Shown one piece after another: positions 13,937-51,419 of a DNA stretch of 64,000 nucleotides. Below the pieces are notes generated by a model. That model saw only the letters and a program-made list of their open reading frames with translations. It did not search any database and was not told the origin of the DNA. The DNA lies in NCBI RefSeq assembly GCF_013304445.1, contig NZ_JAAITA010000001.1, positions 62,001 through 126,000 of the forward strand. Reading direction: 5' to 3'. How positions within the stretch are numbered: position 1 is the first letter of the stretch; each line of letters starts with the position of its first letter. The stretch comes from Blautia hansenii. GTDB taxonomy: Bacteria > Bacillota > Clostridia > Lachnospirales > Lachnospiraceae. The position numbers and the translations under genes were made by a program.

Positions 13937-13984
13937 ATAGAACAGAATAAGAAAGACATTTCTGGCGAAAGCCAGGGACGATAT

Positions 13985-14145
13985 ATGATAGAGGTGCAGG
14001 TTTCAAGAGTATTCTTCTGCAAGGGCTGGGCGGCCGCAGAAGGAGAAAGGGGAAACTGCCGAAGGAGGGAAATCCGCCCGGGATTTTCCCCCTGGGACGC
14101 TGCAGAATATGCAGCGTACTGTCACAATATGTGGAGCGCTATCAT
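13985..14145 (+). ncRNA. Lysine riboswitch (L-box) aptamer
   Basis: The leader carries the L-box landmarks in order: AGAGGTGCAGG after the 5' P1 strand, AAGAGTATTC, GGGGAAACTGCCGAAGGAGG, GCTGCAGAATATGCAGC, CTGTCAC and GTGGAGCGCTATC. P1 closes by pairing ATGATAG with CTATCAT. A terminator hairpin follows, as expected for lysine-induced termination. Together with the 5' flank it explains the 392-base gap before the transporter gene. Confidence 0.92.
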
Positions 14146-14173
14146 CATTGGTCACAGTCATATGTTTATTGGC

Positions 14174-25449: not shown

Positions 25450-25522
25450 GGGATCTTAGCTCAGCTGGGAGAGCATCTGCCTTACAAGCAGAGGGTCATA
25501 GGTTCGAGCCCTATAGGTCCCA
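25450..25522 (+). tRNA. tRNA-Val (anticodon TAC)
   Basis: A complete cloverleaf: acceptor GGGATCT with AGGTCCC, D-arm AGCTCAGCTGGGAGAGC, anticodon stem TCTGC/GCAGA around loop CTTACAA, T-arm ATAGG TTCGAGC CCTAT. The discriminator is A and CCA is not encoded. Confidence 0.95.
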
Positions 25523-25554
25523 TTCTTTTGCCAAAAGACAAAAGAACAAAACAT

Positions 25555-25628
25555 GGCGAGATAGCTCAGTTGGCTAGAGCATACGGTTCATACCCGTAGT
25601 GTCGAGGGTTCGAATCCCCCTCTCGCTA
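25555..25628 (+). tRNA. tRNA-Met (anticodon CAT), elongator type
   Basis: Acceptor GGCGAGA with TCTCGCT, anticodon stem TACGG/CCGTA around loop TTCATAC, T-loop TTCGAAT. The first base pair and D-arm fit elongator tRNA-Met, not the initiator. A CAT-anticodon tRNA-Ile cannot be fully excluded. CCA is not encoded. Confidence 0.9.
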
Positions 25629-25653
25629 CTTGTCGAAAGACATAAAATCAAAT

Positions 25654-25726
25654 GGGATCTTAGCTCAGCTGGGAGAGCATCTGCCTTACAAGCAGAGGGT
25701 CATAGGTTCGAGCCCTATAGGTCCCA
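25654..25726 (+). tRNA. tRNA-Val (anticodon TAC), second copy
   Basis: Identical to the tRNA-Val 204 bases upstream; part of a tandem duplication. Confidence 0.95.
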
Positions 25727-25758
25727 TTCTTTTGCCAAAAAACAGAAGAACAGAACAT

Positions 25759-25832
25759 GGCGAGATAGCTCAGTTGGCTAGAGCATACGGTTCATACCCG
25801 TAGTGTCGAGGGTTCGAATCCCCCTCTCGCTA
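25759..25832 (+). tRNA. tRNA-Met (anticodon CAT), second copy
   Basis: Identical to the first tRNA-Met, again exactly 204 bases downstream of it. Confidence 0.9.
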
Positions 25833-30630: not shown

Positions 30631-30636
30631 TTAAGT

Positions 30637-30716
30637 GCTTATATGACTGACGGAAGTGGAAATGACCACGGGGAGTATAAGCCGCAGAAGCCGACCGTCT
30701 GGGCACATATGCTCGG
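30637..30716 (+). ncRNA. ZTP (pfl) riboswitch
   Basis: P1 strands GCTTATA and TATAAGC enclose the conserved GACTGACGG, P2 (GTGG/CCAC) and CCACGGGGAG elements. A short linker leads to the second domain CCGACCGTCTGGGCA with a closing TCGG, the pfl consensus for binding ZMP/ZTP. It is upstream of the gene that uses ZMP (AICAR). Confidence 0.92.
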
Positions 30717-30731
30717 AAAGTGGGCTTTTTC
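30688..30731 (+). terminator. Terminator controlled by the ZTP riboswitch
   Basis: AAGCC pairs with GGCTT (plus AC with GT inside), ending in TTTTT. The 5' arm uses bases of the aptamer's second domain, so ligand binding should prevent termination. Confidence 0.6.
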
Positions 30732-30829
30732 TTATTTCACGGGAAGGTCAGAAGACGCTGTGGAAAGGAAAAAGTCTTCCGGGCAGGATTTCATCTTATC
30801 ATAGAACAGCAGGAAAAGGAGAAATGTTC

Positions 30830-31543
30830 ATGGAAATGTTATCACTGGAAAAAGAATTGAGAGACAATGCGTATCCGGGCAGAGGAATTGTGCTGGGAAA
30901 ATCAGAGGACGGAAAAAAAGCCGTTGCCGCTTACTTCATTATGGGAAGAAGTGAAAACAGCAGAAACCGCGTATTTGTAGAAGAAGGAGAAGGCATCCGC
31001 ACACAGGCCTTTGACCCTTCCAAATTAGTGGATCCAAGTCTGATTATCTACGCGCCTGTGCGTGTATTGGGAAACAAAACCATTGTGACAAACGGAGACC
31101 AGACCGATACAATTTATGAAGGCATGGACAAACAGATGACTTTTGAGCAGTCCTTGAGGTGTAGGGAGTTTGAGCCGGACGGACCAAACTATACCCCTCG
31201 TATTTCCGGTATTATGCATGTGGAAGGCGGGAAATACAATTATGCCATGTCCATTTTAAAGAGCAACAATGGAAATCCGGAGGCCTGCAACCGCTATACC
31301 TTCGCTTACGAAAATCCGGTGGCAGGAGAGGGCCATTTTATTCATACTTATATGCATGACGGCAATCCGCTGCCAAGTTTTGAAGGCGAACCGAAGCTGG
31401 TAAGTATTCCAAATGAAATTGACGCTTTTACAGAGCAGGTATGGAGCAGTCTCAATGAGGACAACAAAGTTTCTCTGTTTGTGCGTTTTATTGATATTGA
31501 AACAGGCAAGTATGAAACCAGAATTGTGAATAAAAATAAATAA
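30830..31543 (+). CDS. purO: IMP cyclohydrolase, PurO-like
   Basis: 237 residues resembling archaeal PurO: PGRGIVLGKSEDGKKAVAAY, GRSENSRNRVF, PVRVLGNKTIVTNGDQTDTI, NYTPRISGIM and YNYAMSIL. It closes the ring of formyl-AICAR to give IMP, the last step of purine synthesis, in the cytosol. Most bacteria do this with the N-terminal domain of PurH; here that domain is absent from the next gene, so this protein fills the gap. Start at the ATG 8 bases after AAGGAG; an ATG two codons upstream is too close to that site. Confidence 0.85.
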   Translation: MEMLSLEKELRDNAYPGRGIVLGKSEDGKKAVAAYFIMGRSENSRNRVFVEEGEGIRTQAFDPSKLVDPSLIIYAPVRVLGNKTIVTNGDQTDTIYEGMDKQMTFEQSLRCREFEPDGPNYTPRISGIMHVEGGKYNYAMSILKSNNGNPEACNRYTFAYENPVAGEGHFIHTYMHDGNPLPSFEGEPKLVSIPNEIDAFTEQVWSSLNEDNKVSLFVRFIDIETGKYETRIVNKNK

Positions 31544-31567
31544 GAAACGGGAAAGGAGAACTTTGTT

Positions 31568-32752
31568 ATGAAAGAATTAGCTTTGAAATACGGCTGTAAT
31601 CCGAATCAGAAACCTTCCAGAATTTACATGGAAGAGGGTGCAGAACTTCCTATTAAAGTATTGTCAGGAAAACCGGGATATATCAATTTCCTGGACGCGT
31701 TTAACGGCTGGCAGTTAGTCAGAGACTTAAAGAAAGCCACAGGTCTTCCGGCGGCAACTTCTTTTAAGCATGTATCCCCTGCAGGCGCAGCGGTAGGACT
31801 TCCGCTTACGGAAACTCTGGCAAAAATTTACTGGGTAGACGATATGGACTGGAAAAACTTTTCTCCCATTGCCTGTGCTTACGCAAGAGCCAGGGGCGCA
31901 GACCGTATGTCTTCCTTTGGTGACTTCATTTCCCTTTCTGATGTGTGCGATAAAGATACCGCTATGCTCATTAAGAGAGAAGTTTCCGATGGTGTCATTG
32001 CGCCGGGCTACACAGAAGAAGCCCTGGAAATTCTGGCACAGAAGAAAAAAGGCAATTACAATGTCATTGAAATTGACCCGGACTATGTACCGGCTCCTCT
32101 GGAACACAAGCAGGTCTTTGGTGTTACCTTTGAGCAGGGACGTCAGGAACTGGCTATTGACGATGCACTGATTTCCAATTTGGTGACAGAAAAAAAAGAA
32201 CTTACCGAAGAAGCAAAAAGAGATATGAAGATTTCTCTGATAATTCTGAAATATACACAGTCTAATTCCGTATGCTTTGTCAAAGACGGACAGGCCATCG
32301 GTGTAGGCGCTGGACAGCAGTCCCGTGTACACTGTACCCGTCTGGCAGGACAGAAAGCAGACAACTGGTGGTTAAGACAGTGCCCGAAGGTTATGAACCT
32401 TCCGTTTAAAGACAGCATTACCCGTGCAGAGAGAGACAATGCCATTGACGTTTATATTGGCGAGGAATACATGGACGTGCTGGCTGACGGTGCGTGGGAA
32501 AAAACATTTACCGAGAAACCGGAAGTCTTTACCAGAGAGGAAAAGAGAGCATGGCTGGATACCCTTCAGGAAGTGACCCTTGGCTCTGACGCCTTCTTTC
32601 CATTCTCTGACAACATTGAGCGGGCACACAAAAGCGGTGTAGCTTATATTGCACAGCCGGGAGGCTCAGTCAGAGATGATGCGGTTATTGAGACCTGCAA
32701 CAAATACAATATGGTTATGGCGTTTACCGGAATTCGCCTGTTCCATCACTAA
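31568..32752 (+). CDS. purH: AICAR formyltransferase (stand-alone PurH C-terminal type)
   Basis: 394 residues covering only the AICAR transformylase half of PurH. Seen: KYGCNPNQKPSRIY, LSGKPGYINFLDA, the substrate loop FKHVSPAGAAVG near residue 67, YARARGADRMSSFGDF, IGVGAGQQSRVHC and the terminal FTGIRLFHH. It transfers a formyl group from 10-formyl-tetrahydrofolate to ZMP (AICAR). The cyclohydrolase activity comes from the purO-like gene 24 bases upstream. Both are under a ZTP riboswitch that senses the accumulating substrate. Confidence 0.93.
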   Translation: MKELALKYGCNPNQKPSRIYMEEGAELPIKVLSGKPGYINFLDAFNGWQLVRDLKKATGLPAATSFKHVSPAGAAVGLPLTETLAKIYWVDDMDWKNFSPIACAYARARGADRMSSFGDFISLSDVCDKDTAMLIKREVSDGVIAPGYTEEALEILAQKKKGNYNVIEIDPDYVPAPLEHKQVFGVTFEQGRQELAIDDALISNLVTEKKELTEEAKRDMKISLIILKYTQSNSVCFVKDGQAIGVGAGQQSRVHCTRLAGQKADNWWLRQCPKVMNLPFKDSITRAERDNAIDVYIGEEYMDVLADGAWEKTFTEKPEVFTREEKRAWLDTLQEVTLGSDAFFPFSDNIERAHKSGVAYIAQPGGSVRDDAVIETCNKYNMVMAFTGIRLFHH

Positions 32753-34780: not shown

Positions 34781-34808
34781 TTGACAAATTCAGAATTTCG
34801 AGTATACT
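34781..34808 (+). promoter_or_regulatory. Promoter of purF
   Basis: TTGACA, 16 bases, TATACT. The predicted start (near 34815) lies only a few bases before the leader hairpin. Confidence 0.75.
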
Positions 34809-34818
34809 ACTTAATCGT

Positions 34819-34858
34819 AAAGCAAAGGCGCTTTGGAGAAAATCCAAGGCGTCTTTTT
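34819..34858 (+). promoter_or_regulatory. purF leader: hexaloop hairpin exclusive with a terminator
   Basis: Hairpin 1: AAAGC / loop AAAGGC / GCTTT (34819-34834). Hairpin 2: an 11-base terminator stem from 34827-34837 with 34843-34853, then TTTTT. Bases 34827-34834 are needed by both, so they cannot coexist. The 3' arm and T-run AAGGCGTCTTTTTG are identical in the asnB leader. Confidence 0.65.
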
Positions 34859-34885
34859 GCGTTTCTGCGGAAAGGAGAAAAAACA

Positions 34886-36262
34886 TTGGAAGAACGTATA
34901 AAAGAAGCCTGCGGCGTATTCGGTATTTATGCCCCGGCAGGAGAACAGGTGGCAAATTCCGTTTATTACGGACTGTCTTCCCTGCAGCACAGAGGACAGG
35001 AATCCTGCGGTATTGCCGTCTGCGATACAAAGGGGCCTGTGGGAAATATGCATGTACATCGCGGCATGGGGCTTGTAAACGAAGTTTTTAAAGAAGAAAA
35101 TTTAAGAGAACTGAAAGGAAACCTGGGTGTCGGCCATGTGCGGTATTCTACCACAGGGGCGGCTGCGTTAAATAATGCCCAGCCTTTAGTGCTGCATTAT
35201 ATCAAGGGTACTCTGGCTCTGGCTCATAACGGAAATTTAGTGAATACAAAGGAACTGAGAGAAGAATTGGCGAAAAGCGGTGCAATTTTCCAGACCACTA
35301 CGGACTCAGAAGTCATTGCCTACTACATTGCCAGAGAAAGAGTGAATACCAGAACTGTGGAAGAAGCAATTTTACGGACGGCAGAGAAAATCAAGGGCGC
35401 CTATGGCCTGGTGATAGCCAGTCCTCAGAAATTAATCGGCGTAAGAGACCCTCTGGGATTGAAGCCGCTCTGTCTGGGCAAACGGGGAGAGGCATATATA
35501 TTTGCTTCGGAAAGCTGTGCACTTTCTGCCATTGGTGCAGAGTTTGTTCGTGATGTCCGTCCTGGTGAAATTGTGACAATTTCCGAGGGGCAGGTATTTT
35601 CCAACACGGAATTGTGTCAGAAGCAGCAGGCGCACTGTGTTTTTGAATACATTTATTTTGCCAGATTGGACAGCAAAATCGATGGGGTTTCGGTCTATGA
35701 ATCCAGGTTAAAAGCAGGAGAAGCCCTGGCGAAAGTTTATCCCGCAGAGGCAGACATGGTGGCAGGCGTGCCGGATTCGGGCATTACTGCGGCACAGGGG
35801 TATGCCAAAGCCTCCGGTATTCCCTTTGGAATGGCTTTTTACAAAAACAGTTATGTGGGAAGAACCTTTATCAAACCTACACAGGAGGAGCGGGAATCCA
35901 GTGTGCGTCTGAAACTCAGCGTGCTGGAGCAGGCAGTCAAAGGAAAGAACCTTGTTCTGGTAGACGATTCCATTGTCCGGGGAACCACCATTGCCAATTT
36001 GATACGGCTTTTAAAACAGGCAGGTGCCGGAAAGGTGCATGTGCGCATTAGCTCTCCTCCCTTTCTCTATCCCTGCTATTATGGAACAGACGTGCCTTCC
36101 AATAAACAGCTTCTGGCAGTATCCCACTCCACGGAGGAAATCCGCAGGATGATTGGTGCGGATTCCCTGGGATATATGAAAGTGGAGGATTTGGCTGCTA
36201 TGGCAGAAGGTCTGCCTCTTTGCAAAGCTTGCTTTGACAACCGGTATCCCACAGAGATTTAG
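34886..36262 (+). CDS. purF: Amidophosphoribosyltransferase
   Basis: 458 residues. A short propeptide (EERIKEA) precedes the catalytic Cys of CGVFGIY, which becomes the N-terminus after processing. Glutaminase domain: LQHRGQESCGIA, GHVRYSTTGAAA, LAHNGNLVN. PRPP site: LVDDSIVRGTTIANL near residue 355. No Fe-S tail pattern stands out beyond scattered cysteines near the C-terminus. First step of purine synthesis: PRPP plus glutamine to phosphoribosylamine. The start is a TTG 8 bases after AAAGGAG; upstream in-frame codons lie inside the leader hairpins. Its stop overlaps the asnB stop on the other strand. Confidence 0.95.
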   Translation: MEERIKEACGVFGIYAPAGEQVANSVYYGLSSLQHRGQESCGIAVCDTKGPVGNMHVHRGMGLVNEVFKEENLRELKGNLGVGHVRYSTTGAAALNNAQPLVLHYIKGTLALAHNGNLVNTKELREELAKSGAIFQTTTDSEVIAYYIARERVNTRTVEEAILRTAEKIKGAYGLVIASPQKLIGVRDPLGLKPLCLGKRGEAYIFASESCALSAIGAEFVRDVRPGEIVTISEGQVFSNTELCQKQQAHCVFEYIYFARLDSKIDGVSVYESRLKAGEALAKVYPAEADMVAGVPDSGITAAQGYAKASGIPFGMAFYKNSYVGRTFIKPTQEERESSVRLKLSVLEQAVKGKNLVLVDDSIVRGTTIANLIRLLKQAGAGKVHVRISSPPFLYPCYYGTDVPSNKQLLAVSHSTEEIRRMIGADSLGYMKVEDLAAMAEGLPLCKACFDNRYPTEI

Positions 36263-37839
36263 GCTCCGCTTGCACCGTAATTGGACAGGACTCTGGCGGA
36301 AGGGTCGTCTACATTACAGCCTTTCCAGGCTTTGTTGGGCATCCAGAAGTCTGCCACCATCCGGCTTTGTCCTGGATAATATTTTTCAAAAATTTCCCGG
36401 TACAAAAGGGATTCCTTGGTAAAGGGCTGTGCGTGGGCATAGCCCTTTTGCTTCTCTTCAAACTCTTTCTGGGTGTATTGAGTGTCTGCATATTCTTTCA
36501 GATAATCTACCATAGAATGCCCCACTGCGTCTGAAAATGCAGCTTTTTCTCTCCAGAGAATCTCAGGGGGCAGATACCGGCCTTTTTCAAAGGCGCGGCG
36601 CAGTAGATATTTTCCTTTTCCGTAAGTGTTCATTTTTAGTTTTGGATTTACGCTCATGACGTAGCGTACAAAGTCCAAATCCCCGAAGGGAACCCTTGCT
36701 TCCAGAGAATTTACGGAAATGCAGCGGTCCGCCCGGAGCACGTCATACATATGCAGTTCCCGAATCCGCTTCTGTGATTCCTTTTGAAATTCTTCCGGCG
36801 AAGGGGCAAAGTCGGTATATTTGTAGCCGAATAATTCGTCAGAAATTTCTCCGGTAAGCAAAACCCGGATGTCTGTCTGTTCATGAATGGCTTTGCATAC
36901 CAGGTACATACCAATGCTGGCGCGGATCGTGGTGATATCGAAAGTGCCCAGGAGCTGAATGACTTCTTCCAGGGAAGCCAGAACCTCTTTCTTGGAGATG
37001 ATGACCTCCGTGTGCTGACTGCCAATATAATCGGCTGTCTGCCGGGCATATTTCAAATCAATGGCGTCTTCCTTCATGCCAATGGCAAAGGTGCGGATAG
37101 GAACCTGGCTTTTTTGTGCTGCCACGGCACAGACCAGGGAAGAATCCAGACCGCCGGACAGGAGAAAACCGACCTTGGCATCGGCGACCAGCCGCTTTTC
37201 AATTCCGGCAGTGAGCTTGTCATGAATCTTTTGGCATACGGTTTCCATATCGTCATCACTGTAGTTTTCGGCTTTTGCAATGTCACAGTAGCACACAAAT
37301 TTGCCGTCTTTGTAAAAATGTCCCGGTGGGAAGGGCATGATATGTTCACATAAACCCACCAGATTTTTAGGTTCACTGGCGAAAACCATGACCCCTTTTG
37401 AATCCCGTCCATAGTAAAGAGGGCGAATGCCTATGGGGTCTCTGGCTGCAATGTATTCCTGGGTTTTGCTGTCATAGAGGATACAGGCAAACTCTGCGTC
37501 CAGCATGGCAAACATGTCGGTGCCATATTCTTCATACAGAGGCAGCAGGATTTCGCAGTCTGAGTCGCTCTCAAAGCTGTATTTTCCCAGAAGCTGTTTT
37601 TTTATCCGCTCGAATCCATAGATTTCTCCATTGCACACCAGATGATTTCCATGCAGCGAAAAGGGCTGCATACCGGAAGGGGTAAGCCCCATAATGGCAA
37701 GTCGGTGAAAGCCCAGAAAGCCTTTTCCCGTATCTGTTATGCGGCTGTCATCCGGTCCTCTGGAAACCGTTCTCTGAAAATACTTCTGAAATTCTTCCAG
37801 AAGAAGGCCGCTGTCACAATATCCCATAACTGAACACAT
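36259..37839 (-). CDS. asnB: Asparagine synthase (glutamine-hydrolysing), AsnB type
   Basis: 526 residues. The start ATG is chosen so that Cys2 (MCSVMGY) becomes the glutaminase nucleophile. Then SRGPDDS, FLGFHRLAIMG, LVCNGEIYG; synthetase PP-loop LLSGGLDSSLVCAVAA near residue 230; LLTGEISDELFGY near residue 320; SLEARVPFGDLDFV. Makes asparagine from aspartate, glutamine and ATP in the cytosol. GGAGG ribosome site. It is convergent with purF and the two genes share their stop codons by 4 bases; each has its own leader attenuator of the same design. Confidence 0.93.
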   Translation of the reverse strand: MCSVMGYCDSGLLLEEFQKYFQRTVSRGPDDSRITDTGKGFLGFHRLAIMGLTPSGMQPFSLHGNHLVCNGEIYGFERIKKQLLGKYSFESDSDCEILLPLYEEYGTDMFAMLDAEFACILYDSKTQEYIAARDPIGIRPLYYGRDSKGVMVFASEPKNLVGLCEHIMPFPPGHFYKDGKFVCYCDIAKAENYSDDDMETVCQKIHDKLTAGIEKRLVADAKVGFLLSGGLDSSLVCAVAAQKSQVPIRTFAIGMKEDAIDLKYARQTADYIGSQHTEVIISKKEVLASLEEVIQLLGTFDITTIRASIGMYLVCKAIHEQTDIRVLLTGEISDELFGYKYTDFAPSPEEFQKESQKRIRELHMYDVLRADRCISVNSLEARVPFGDLDFVRYVMSVNPKLKMNTYGKGKYLLRRAFEKGRYLPPEILWREKAAFSDAVGHSMVDYLKEYADTQYTQKEFEEKQKGYAHAQPFTKESLLYREIFEKYYPGQSRMVADFWMPNKAWKGCNVDDPSARVLSNYGASGA

Positions 37840-37883
37840 AATCAAGTACCTCCATATCCTTTATATTCCTGTTTTTATATAAC

Positions 37884-37929
37884 AAAAAGACGCCTTTTAT
37901 GCGAAAACACATAAAAGACGCCCTTGTCT
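37884..37929 (-). promoter_or_regulatory. asnB leader: hexaloop hairpin exclusive with a terminator
   Basis: On the minus strand hairpin 1 is AGAC / loop AAGGGC / GTCT (37929-37916). The terminator stem pairs GGCGTCTTTTATG with CATAAAAGGCGTC (two G-T pairs), then TTTTT. The two structures share bases 37922-37916. It sits about 15 bases after the -10 box, as in purF. Confidence 0.65.
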
Positions 37930-37941
37930 GATATGGCTTGT

Positions 37942-37970
37942 ATTTTATACTTGGGAGGGTGTTTTGTCAA
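37942..37970 (-). promoter_or_regulatory. Promoter of asnB
   Basis: Minus strand TTGACA, 17 bases, TAAAAT. Confidence 0.75.
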
Positions 37971-51341: not shown

Positions 51342-51373
51342 AACGTCCGGATTGTGAAAGGGAATATGATAGG

Positions 51374-51419
51374 AAAAAGCCAGCTTTGAATTTTAAATAT
51401 TCAAAGCTGGCTTTTTTAA
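51374..51419 (+). terminator. Terminator of the secDF-ktr-pit-DUF368 operon
   Basis: AAAAAGCCAGCTTTGAAT pairs with ATTCAAAGCTGGCTTTTT: an 18-base stem with T-run. Confidence 0.95.

Follow-up and report, generated by a model that had tools for sequence, protein, structure and literature searches.

A predicted one-hexaloop antitermination element before nitrogen and glutamine genes in Lachnospiraceae

The purF and asnB leaders

We analyzed a window of 64,000 nucleotides (nt) from Blautia hansenii in which purF and asnB lie tail to tail, each behind a short leader with the same element: a small hairpin with a six-nucleotide loop (hexaloop) that overlaps an intrinsic terminator (Table 1). This element is very probably an ANTAR-type transcription antiterminator that depends on a protein and works through a single hexaloop. 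By eye, purF starts at a TTG codon with AAAGGAG upstream, and asnB at an ATG (protein MCSVMG...); asnB was checked for the glutamine amidotransferase domain in the same manner as purF. Transcription of the two genes is predicted to start at about 34815 and 37935, respectively.

The first-pass annotation of this DNA had described hairpins with the loops AAAGGC (purF) and AAGGGC (asnB) that share their 3' arm with terminators ending in one identical sequence, and both the sequence and its folding confirmed this. The shared sequence, AAGGCGTCTTTTTG, stands at 34846-34859 (+) and 37896-37883 (-), which are its only exact matches in the window. In both leaders, folding gave hairpin and terminator as two mutually exclusive structures. 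The hexaloop starts 15 nt (purF) and 16 nt (asnB) past the -10 box, and if transcription starts about 7 nt after that box, the hairpins begin only about 3 nt and 6 nt into the transcript; the distance of 10-15 bases proposed in the first-pass annotation is thus revised. The terminators fold at -21.6 (purF) and -23.3 (asnB) kcal/mol, and none of 200 shuffles was as stable in either leader. The hairpins folded alone are weak, at -5.4 kcal/mol for purF (16/200 shuffles as stable) and -2.9 kcal/mol for asnB (67/200). By energy alone the small hairpins are therefore unremarkable, and their support is comparative. The terminators are far more stable, so that transcription would be expected to stop by default unless the hairpin had help to win. 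An Rfam scan of the whole window placed no family above threshold at either leader; with E values up to 10 allowed, the best match to the purF leader reached 21.9 bits, below its gathering score of 58, and no family was assigned.

Table 1. Genes, promoters and predicted RNA structures of the purF and asnB leaders (window positions)
Feature	Position	Strand	Basis
purF, amidophosphoribosyltransferase	34886..36262	+	TIGR01134 above cut-off; glutamine amidotransferase domains
asnB, glutamine-hydrolysing asparagine synthase	36259..37839	-	NF006949 and TIGR01536 above cut-off
purF sigma-70 promoter: TTGACA 34781-34786, 16-nt spacer, TATACT 34803-34808	34781..34808	+	by sequence
asnB sigma-70 promoter: TTGACA 37970-37965, 17-nt spacer, TAAAAT 37947-37942	37942..37970	-	by sequence
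purF antiterminator hairpin (predicted), stem TAAAGC/GCTTTG, hexaloop AAAGGC 34824-34829	34818..34835	+	folding and comparative support
purF intrinsic terminator, 5' arm = hexaloop and hairpin 3' arm, ends in T run	34824..34858	+	folding
asnB antiterminator hairpin (predicted), stem AGAC/GTCT, hexaloop AAGGGC 37925-37920	37916..37929	-	folding and comparative support
asnB intrinsic terminator, overlaps hairpin loop and 3' arm	37884..37925	-	folding

Copies, covariation and gene context of the element

The B. hansenii genome holds at least six copies of the element, before purF, asnB, glnN, glnA-nitR, amt and pyrG. Genome-wide, the 13-mer AAGGCGTCTTTTT has three exact occurrences, in the leaders of purF, asnB and glnN (type III glutamine synthetase), and a DNA search with the glnN leader led to the fourth copy, upstream of the ammonium transporter gene amt. 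A structural scan gave two further copies with different stems (TGAC/GTCA and AAGGAC/GTTCTT), before pyrG and glnA; the pyrG copy had been missed by our covariance model R1 and was recovered by this custom scan. glnA is followed by an ANTAR gene, which we call nitR by analogy with NitR of Clostridium saccharobutylicum, and the glnA-nitR operon itself bears the element. pyrG heads a same-strand gene run that, by eye, continues with gltB, gltD and urease genes and then glnA and the ANTAR gene; this run adjoins glnN. A second ANTAR gene of the same genome lies beside a histidine kinase gene and, by eye, resembles eutV within a eut cluster.

The first-pass annotation had named a lack of covariation in related leaders as the result that would speak against an antitermination element. 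We looked at the 5' arm of the hairpin, which is absent from the terminator and was left unpaired in our models. Alignment A5 comprised 26 sequences. R1 hits that had no hexaloop hairpin or no clear gene, or that repeated another hit, were excluded beforehand (L083, L096, L093, L094, L095, L097, L098, window 51364, L073, L078, L074, L079, L069, L090 and L076), as were the poorly aligning pyrG leaders of the genus. In A5 the 5' arm was paired in 91.0% of cells compared to 78.0% in shuffles, and 28 cells were changed on both sides compared to 12.3. Two cruder measures stood out less clearly from shuffles, namely pairs with a double change (5 versus 3.8) and further pair types (9 versus 7.3); 26 and 16 of 500 shuffles were equally high.

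Model R2, built from 26 sequences, encoded only the terminator pairs and left the 5' arm of the hairpin unpaired. In a search of 150 family genomes representing 149 genera, it matched 118/150 at E<=0.003, a cut-off at which it still misses some genuine weak elements, and 106/150 at E<=0.001. Of the 115 hits listed first (E up to 2.5e-5), 108 were read, the other seven belonging to B. hansenii (4) and G028 (3); we judged six false (L101, L124, L169, L182, L185, L191) and kept 102, among them one B. hansenii element (glnA). Stem pairs 2-5 were formed in 371 of 408 cells, whereas 2000 random re-pairings averaged 319.6 and reached 335 at most; the finder used for these counts required pair 2. With one element per genome, 244/272 cells were paired (shuffled maximum 228), and in glnN leaders alone 133/144 (shuffled maximum 125). 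Thus, the 5' arm covaries with its partner arm both in A5 and among the 102 family elements.

A model alignment of 100 of these elements, made without the finder and leaving out L128 and L207, had pairs 1-3 in 100/100, pair 4 in 92 and pair 5 in 71, with a closing C-G pair in all 100. The loop was A at position 1 in 98 (G twice), A at position 2 in 100, G at position 4 in 100, G98/A2 at position 5 and C97/T3 at position 6, while position 3 was A70/G17/C7/T6. The finder-based count gave A1 in 100/102 and G4 in 102/102, the finder itself having demanded G4. The element thus follows the loop rule of ANTAR targets, a hexaloop with A1 and G4. Because the model favours its own consensus and the loop positions also belong to the terminator arm, this conservation is support rather than proof; the telling part is position 3, which varies freely next to a fixed G4.

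According to BLAST against references, the genes behind the 102 elements are glnN (36), amt or PII-amt (15), gltB (10), asnB (8), purF (7), glnA (6), pyrG (5), carA (3), a GlnQ-like ABC transporter (2), gdhA (2), a circularly permuted ATP-grasp protein (3) and five single genes. With the ATP-grasp and single genes set aside, 94/102 elements stand before genes of nitrogen assimilation or genes linked to glutamine. Library checks of these names placed carA above cut-off in 3/3 cases, gdhA in 1/2 (the other gene is truncated), and PII over the Pfam cut-off in 2/2; GlnQ was the best match yet below cut-off in 2/2. The covariance search across Lachnospiraceae proposed in the first-pass annotation found the element before the genes named there (glnA, gltB, amt, asnB, purF) and additionally before glnN, pyrG, carA, gdhA and PII. 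purF and asnB do both encode class II glutamine amidotransferases, as had been noted; as the common theme of the element, this enzyme class is ruled out by the wider set of nitrogen genes.

The element also precedes the circularly permuted ATP-grasp gene at L149, where a Pfam library check confirmed the identity of the one protein tested, and at L150, L205, L091 and L421, assigned by BLAST or eye; its presence suggests a nitrogen-related role for this operon.

Within the genus (20 genomes including B. hansenii), DNA matches to the glnN leader occurred in 16 genomes at E<=1e-5, and reading by eye revealed the element upstream of glnN in three more. Across the class, R2 matched 70 of 245 genomes at E<=0.001. 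Among the best 29 class loci, some of them from family members, 22 precede glnN (15), amt (5), glnA (1) or gltB (1), and some of the other seven are false. In named genomes, at least 119 stretches fitted a pattern scan, and many of the 80 listed come from Lachnospiraceae, including Blautia, Dorea, Roseburia and Oliverpabstia.

Elsewhere in the window, one R1 match (51364-51417, E=0.07) is a terminator-like hairpin without a hexaloop and was rejected as an element. A ZMP/ZTP riboswitch at 30633-30711 (+), about 4 kb upstream of purF, heads open reading frames at 30656-32752 that by eye resemble purine-pathway genes. A lysine riboswitch lies at 13981-14149 (+; 116.8 bits), and two tandem tRNA genes with equal scores at 25450-25832 (+) look as if duplicated recently.

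ANTAR proteins and the single hexaloop

We compared the element with published ANTAR systems. ANTAR proteins are known to control nitrogen genes by antitermination (PMC3369931). For EutV, A1, G4 and the closing pairs of the hexaloop matter (PMC3369931), Tyr164 stacks on G4, and isolated hexaloops are bound (PMC8934654). Antitermination by EutV needs two hairpins, P1 and P2; linkers of 5-12 nt occur, and linkers of 3 or 14 nt impair it. Lone hexaloops are expected where no transcribing polymerase sets a time limit, and in mycobacteria some stem-loops at ribosome sites deviate from the dual motif (PMC8934654). Like the dual-hexaloop target of the Enterococcus faecalis eut genes, the element has an A1/G4 hexaloop, conserved closing pairs and a hairpin that overlaps and excludes an intrinsic terminator, as P2 does; an ANTAR protein in the genome and a nitrogen theme are further likenesses to the EutV system. 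Unlike that target, it has a single hexaloop, located at the very beginning of the predicted transcript, with no P1 and no linker.

The single hexaloop was examined in the family leaders. A promoter with 16-18 nt spacing precedes 84/102 elements, the other 18 having none by this rule, and in 77 of the 84 predicted transcripts fewer than 12 nt, mostly 1-6, come before the hairpin. The place expected for P1 is usually occupied by the -10 box. Upstream A..G.. hexaloops with stems of at least four pairs occurred before 6/102 elements (control mean 6.0), and with stems of at least three pairs before 16/102 (control 14.6), both at chance level. In the 70 nt upstream of the six B. hansenii copies there was no second A..G.. 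hexaloop with at least four pairs, and amt has one with three. Scans of the eut locus of B. hansenii found no dual-hexaloop motif, so that the upstream scan is without a positive control. With this limit, the chance-level counts agree with the earlier statement that the ANTAR motif has two hairpins of which only one fits here.

Two or three attenuators in series precede one gene in G226, G353, G210, G265 and G115 (sites G226:C5:49290-49501; L388 and L399; G265:C29:82975-83110; L188). The upstream copies that were read (L385, L388, L399, L188) have a terminator-like arm of their own and are therefore not dual-hexaloop motifs.

ANTAR genes were found in 131/150 family genomes. At E<=1e-3 the element was present in 106 of these 131 genomes compared to 0/19 without ANTAR (Fisher p=2.5e-12); the numbers were 86 versus 0 at E<=1e-4 and 117 versus 1 at E<=0.003, where the single non-ANTAR match (G016) was judged false on reading. 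These counts include hits that were not all read individually, and because the genomes are related by descent, the p-values overstate independence. glnN is present in 18 of the 19 genomes without ANTAR. R2 run over 19 glnN loci of non-ANTAR genomes picked out two leaders, L431 (E 0.0005) and L449 (E 0.17). In both (G114 and G137, respectively, with no ANTAR detected) hairpin and terminator are kept and loop position 1 has changed from A to G. At the class level, the element was found at E<=1e-4 in 43/124 ANTAR genomes compared to 5/121 others; of these five, G180, G184 and G342 were false on reading, and G210 and G283 real.

NitR of B. hansenii has an ANTAR domain (58.2 bits; Pfam cut-off 27.3) and a Response_reg match of 14.7 bits, below the cut-off of 30.2. 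Among the best-scoring other family loci, 28 of the 29 examined place an ANTAR gene close to a glnA homologue; in one of the 28 (L217) this homologue is a distant one. ANTAR genes adjoin pyrG at L217, with that distant homologue nearby, and at L232, where no glnA homologue was seen. The phospho-acceptor Asp is absent from the receiver-like half of all 28 full-length NitR proteins aligned, that of B. hansenii included; the alignment leaves out one fragment, one protein that was not found and the EutV-like protein of B. hansenii (L013), which has this Asp. The two EutV-type traits, an Asp phosphorylation site and a leucine coiled coil, were thus not found in NitR, which lacks the Asp and has a basic, Lys/Arg-rich linker. 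In a predicted structure (mean pLDDT 89.8), we read alternating strands and helices as in a receiver, followed by a long helix, which is interrupted at the basic linker before three more helices; NitR is therefore modelled as a receiver fold without the phospho-acceptor Asp. Its matches in the PDB were Rv1626 (1s8n), EutV (6wsh), NasR (4akk, E 0.013) and AmiR (1qo0, E 0.69). By our own mapping onto EutV, with residue roles taken from PMC8934654, NitR retains Lys149, Glu160 and the SM-motif Met.

In C. saccharobutylicum, the ANTAR protein NitR is described as inducing GS/GOGAT genes (glutamine synthetase and glutamate synthase) under nitrogen limitation by antitermination (PMC6316151), and a homologue is reported in C. 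thermocellum (PMC4676874). The Lachnospiraceae protein resembles it as an ANTAR protein of nitrogen assimilation, whereas the available parts of both papers give neither an RNA element nor the wider targets (purF, pyrG, carA, asnB, PII/amt, gdhA). AmiR and NasR likewise have an ANTAR output, and the receiver-like domain of AmiR is also non-phosphorylatable (PMC3369931, PMC8934654); their RNA targets are placed in the dual-hairpin seed alignment (PMC3369931). The photoreceptor NmPAL contains ANTAR and binds one short hairpin, but its hairpins come from in vitro selection and genome mining, its natural target is said to be unknown, and the system is not an attenuator (PMC10966536). Our searches of the open-access literature gave no description of a one-hairpin ANTAR antitermination element or of a Lachnospiraceae nitrogen attenuator.

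Interpretation and biological meaning

The covariance search, the co-occurrence of element and ANTAR genes, the A1/G4 loop and the glnA-linked ANTAR gene all favour, with the exceptions given below, a one-hexaloop ANTAR antiterminator, in line with the first-pass suggestion of a nitrogen- or glutamine-responsive element, perhaps a one-hairpin ANTAR variant. Several observations weigh on the other side. EutV itself needs both hairpins (PMC3369931, PMC8934654), and its RNA contacts Arg142, Lys143 and Lys147 are not kept in B. hansenii NitR, with Tyr164 replaced by His or Phe (own mapping). The loop also belongs to the terminator arm, which could explain some of its conservation. Four leaders in three family genomes without ANTAR look element-like by eye: glnA AAAGGC and glnN GAAGAC in G137, glnN GACGGC in G114 and glnN AAAGGA in G129 (completeness 81% for G137, 86% for G129, 98% for G114). 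The class genomes G206, G210 and G283 have real elements, that of G206 falling just outside E<=1e-4, and an ANTAR search up to E 10 in these three found none save two sub-threshold matches in G210. These six genomes with elements or element-like leaders and no detected ANTAR are real gaps in the correlation. Conversely, the search at E<=0.003 left 14 of the 131 ANTAR family genomes unmatched; a looser search gave elements judged real in four of them, leaving 10.

These points bear differently on the alternatives. That the hairpin is read by a non-ANTAR protein (LicT/BglG-like, HutP-like or glutamine synthetase itself) would account for genomes with elements and no detected ANTAR, and for NitR residues that differ from the RNA contacts of EutV; we consider it unlikely, as ANTAR genes co-occur with the element at family and class level, the loop obeys the ANTAR rule and the nitR operon carries the element. 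A plain, unregulated promoter-proximal terminator that sets a low read-through, with an incidental hexaloop hairpin, fits the far greater stability of the terminator, the loop bases shared by both structures, and the three hairpins which, folded alone, were matched in stability by 6, 16 and 67 of 200 shuffles. It is very unlikely in view of a 5' arm that has no role in the terminator and yet covaries with the 3' arm, and of an element that tracks ANTAR genes whereas glnN persists without them.

Antitermination targets of ANTAR proteins are defined as dual (PMC3369931, PMC8164766), and the first hairpin might have been missed if the true start lies further upstream: 7 of the 84 promoter-bearing family leaders, and likewise the pyrG leaders of the genus, leave room for at least 12 nt before the hairpin, and 18/102 leaders have no promoter by our rule. 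Upstream A..G.. hexaloops were nevertheless no commoner than in shuffles (in a scan without a positive control), and the -10 box usually lies where P1 would be, which makes a dual target highly improbable. Hardly credible is a direct metabolite sensor, a glutamine riboswitch of minimal size. Its targets would indeed be glutamine genes, but about 18 nt with one hexaloop leave little room for a pocket, no Rfam family came above threshold at the purF and asnB leaders, and the element accompanies an RNA-binding protein.

If the element is a one-hexaloop ANTAR antiterminator, polymerase would by default start a few bases upstream, form the terminator and stop before the gene. Active NitR, encoded next to glnA, would keep the initial ~20 nt of RNA folded into the hairpin with its AANGGC hexaloop. 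With the 3' arm of this hairpin unavailable to the terminator, transcription would read through into purF, asnB, glnN, glnA-nitR, amt, pyrG and others. We infer NitR binding, antitermination and activation under nitrogen or glutamine shortage; this direction of control is proposed because of the statement on C. saccharobutylicum NitR cited above and the gene content. The glutamine-consuming purF, pyrG, carA and asnB may share the switch with glutamine-making genes as a compensation for low glutamine. Considerably more tentative is the wider picture, in which Clostridia would possess a one-hexaloop code for nitrogen and glutamine economy anchored at the 5' end, and non-phosphorylatable NitR with its basic linker would do alone what EutV needs two hexaloops for, the hairpin being made first. 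Gene order further prompts the speculation that the glutamine synthetase next door may sense glutamine and hold or free NitR.

Relative to dual targets, an attenuator that has one hexaloop at the transcript start and is shared within a family and outside it appears to be new. PMC8934654 raises the open question of why EutV binds a single hexaloop yet requires two for antitermination. If our reading is true, many natural leaders with one hexaloop at a fixed position at the transcript start would indicate that one can suffice for antitermination. The proposed regulon of gut Lachnospiraceae and other Clostridia would comprise glnN, glnA, amt/PII, gltB, asnB, purF, pyrG, carA and gdhA; our searches of the open-access literature gave no such regulon for these bacteria. 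It would join nitrogen assimilation to glutamine-consuming nucleotide synthesis.

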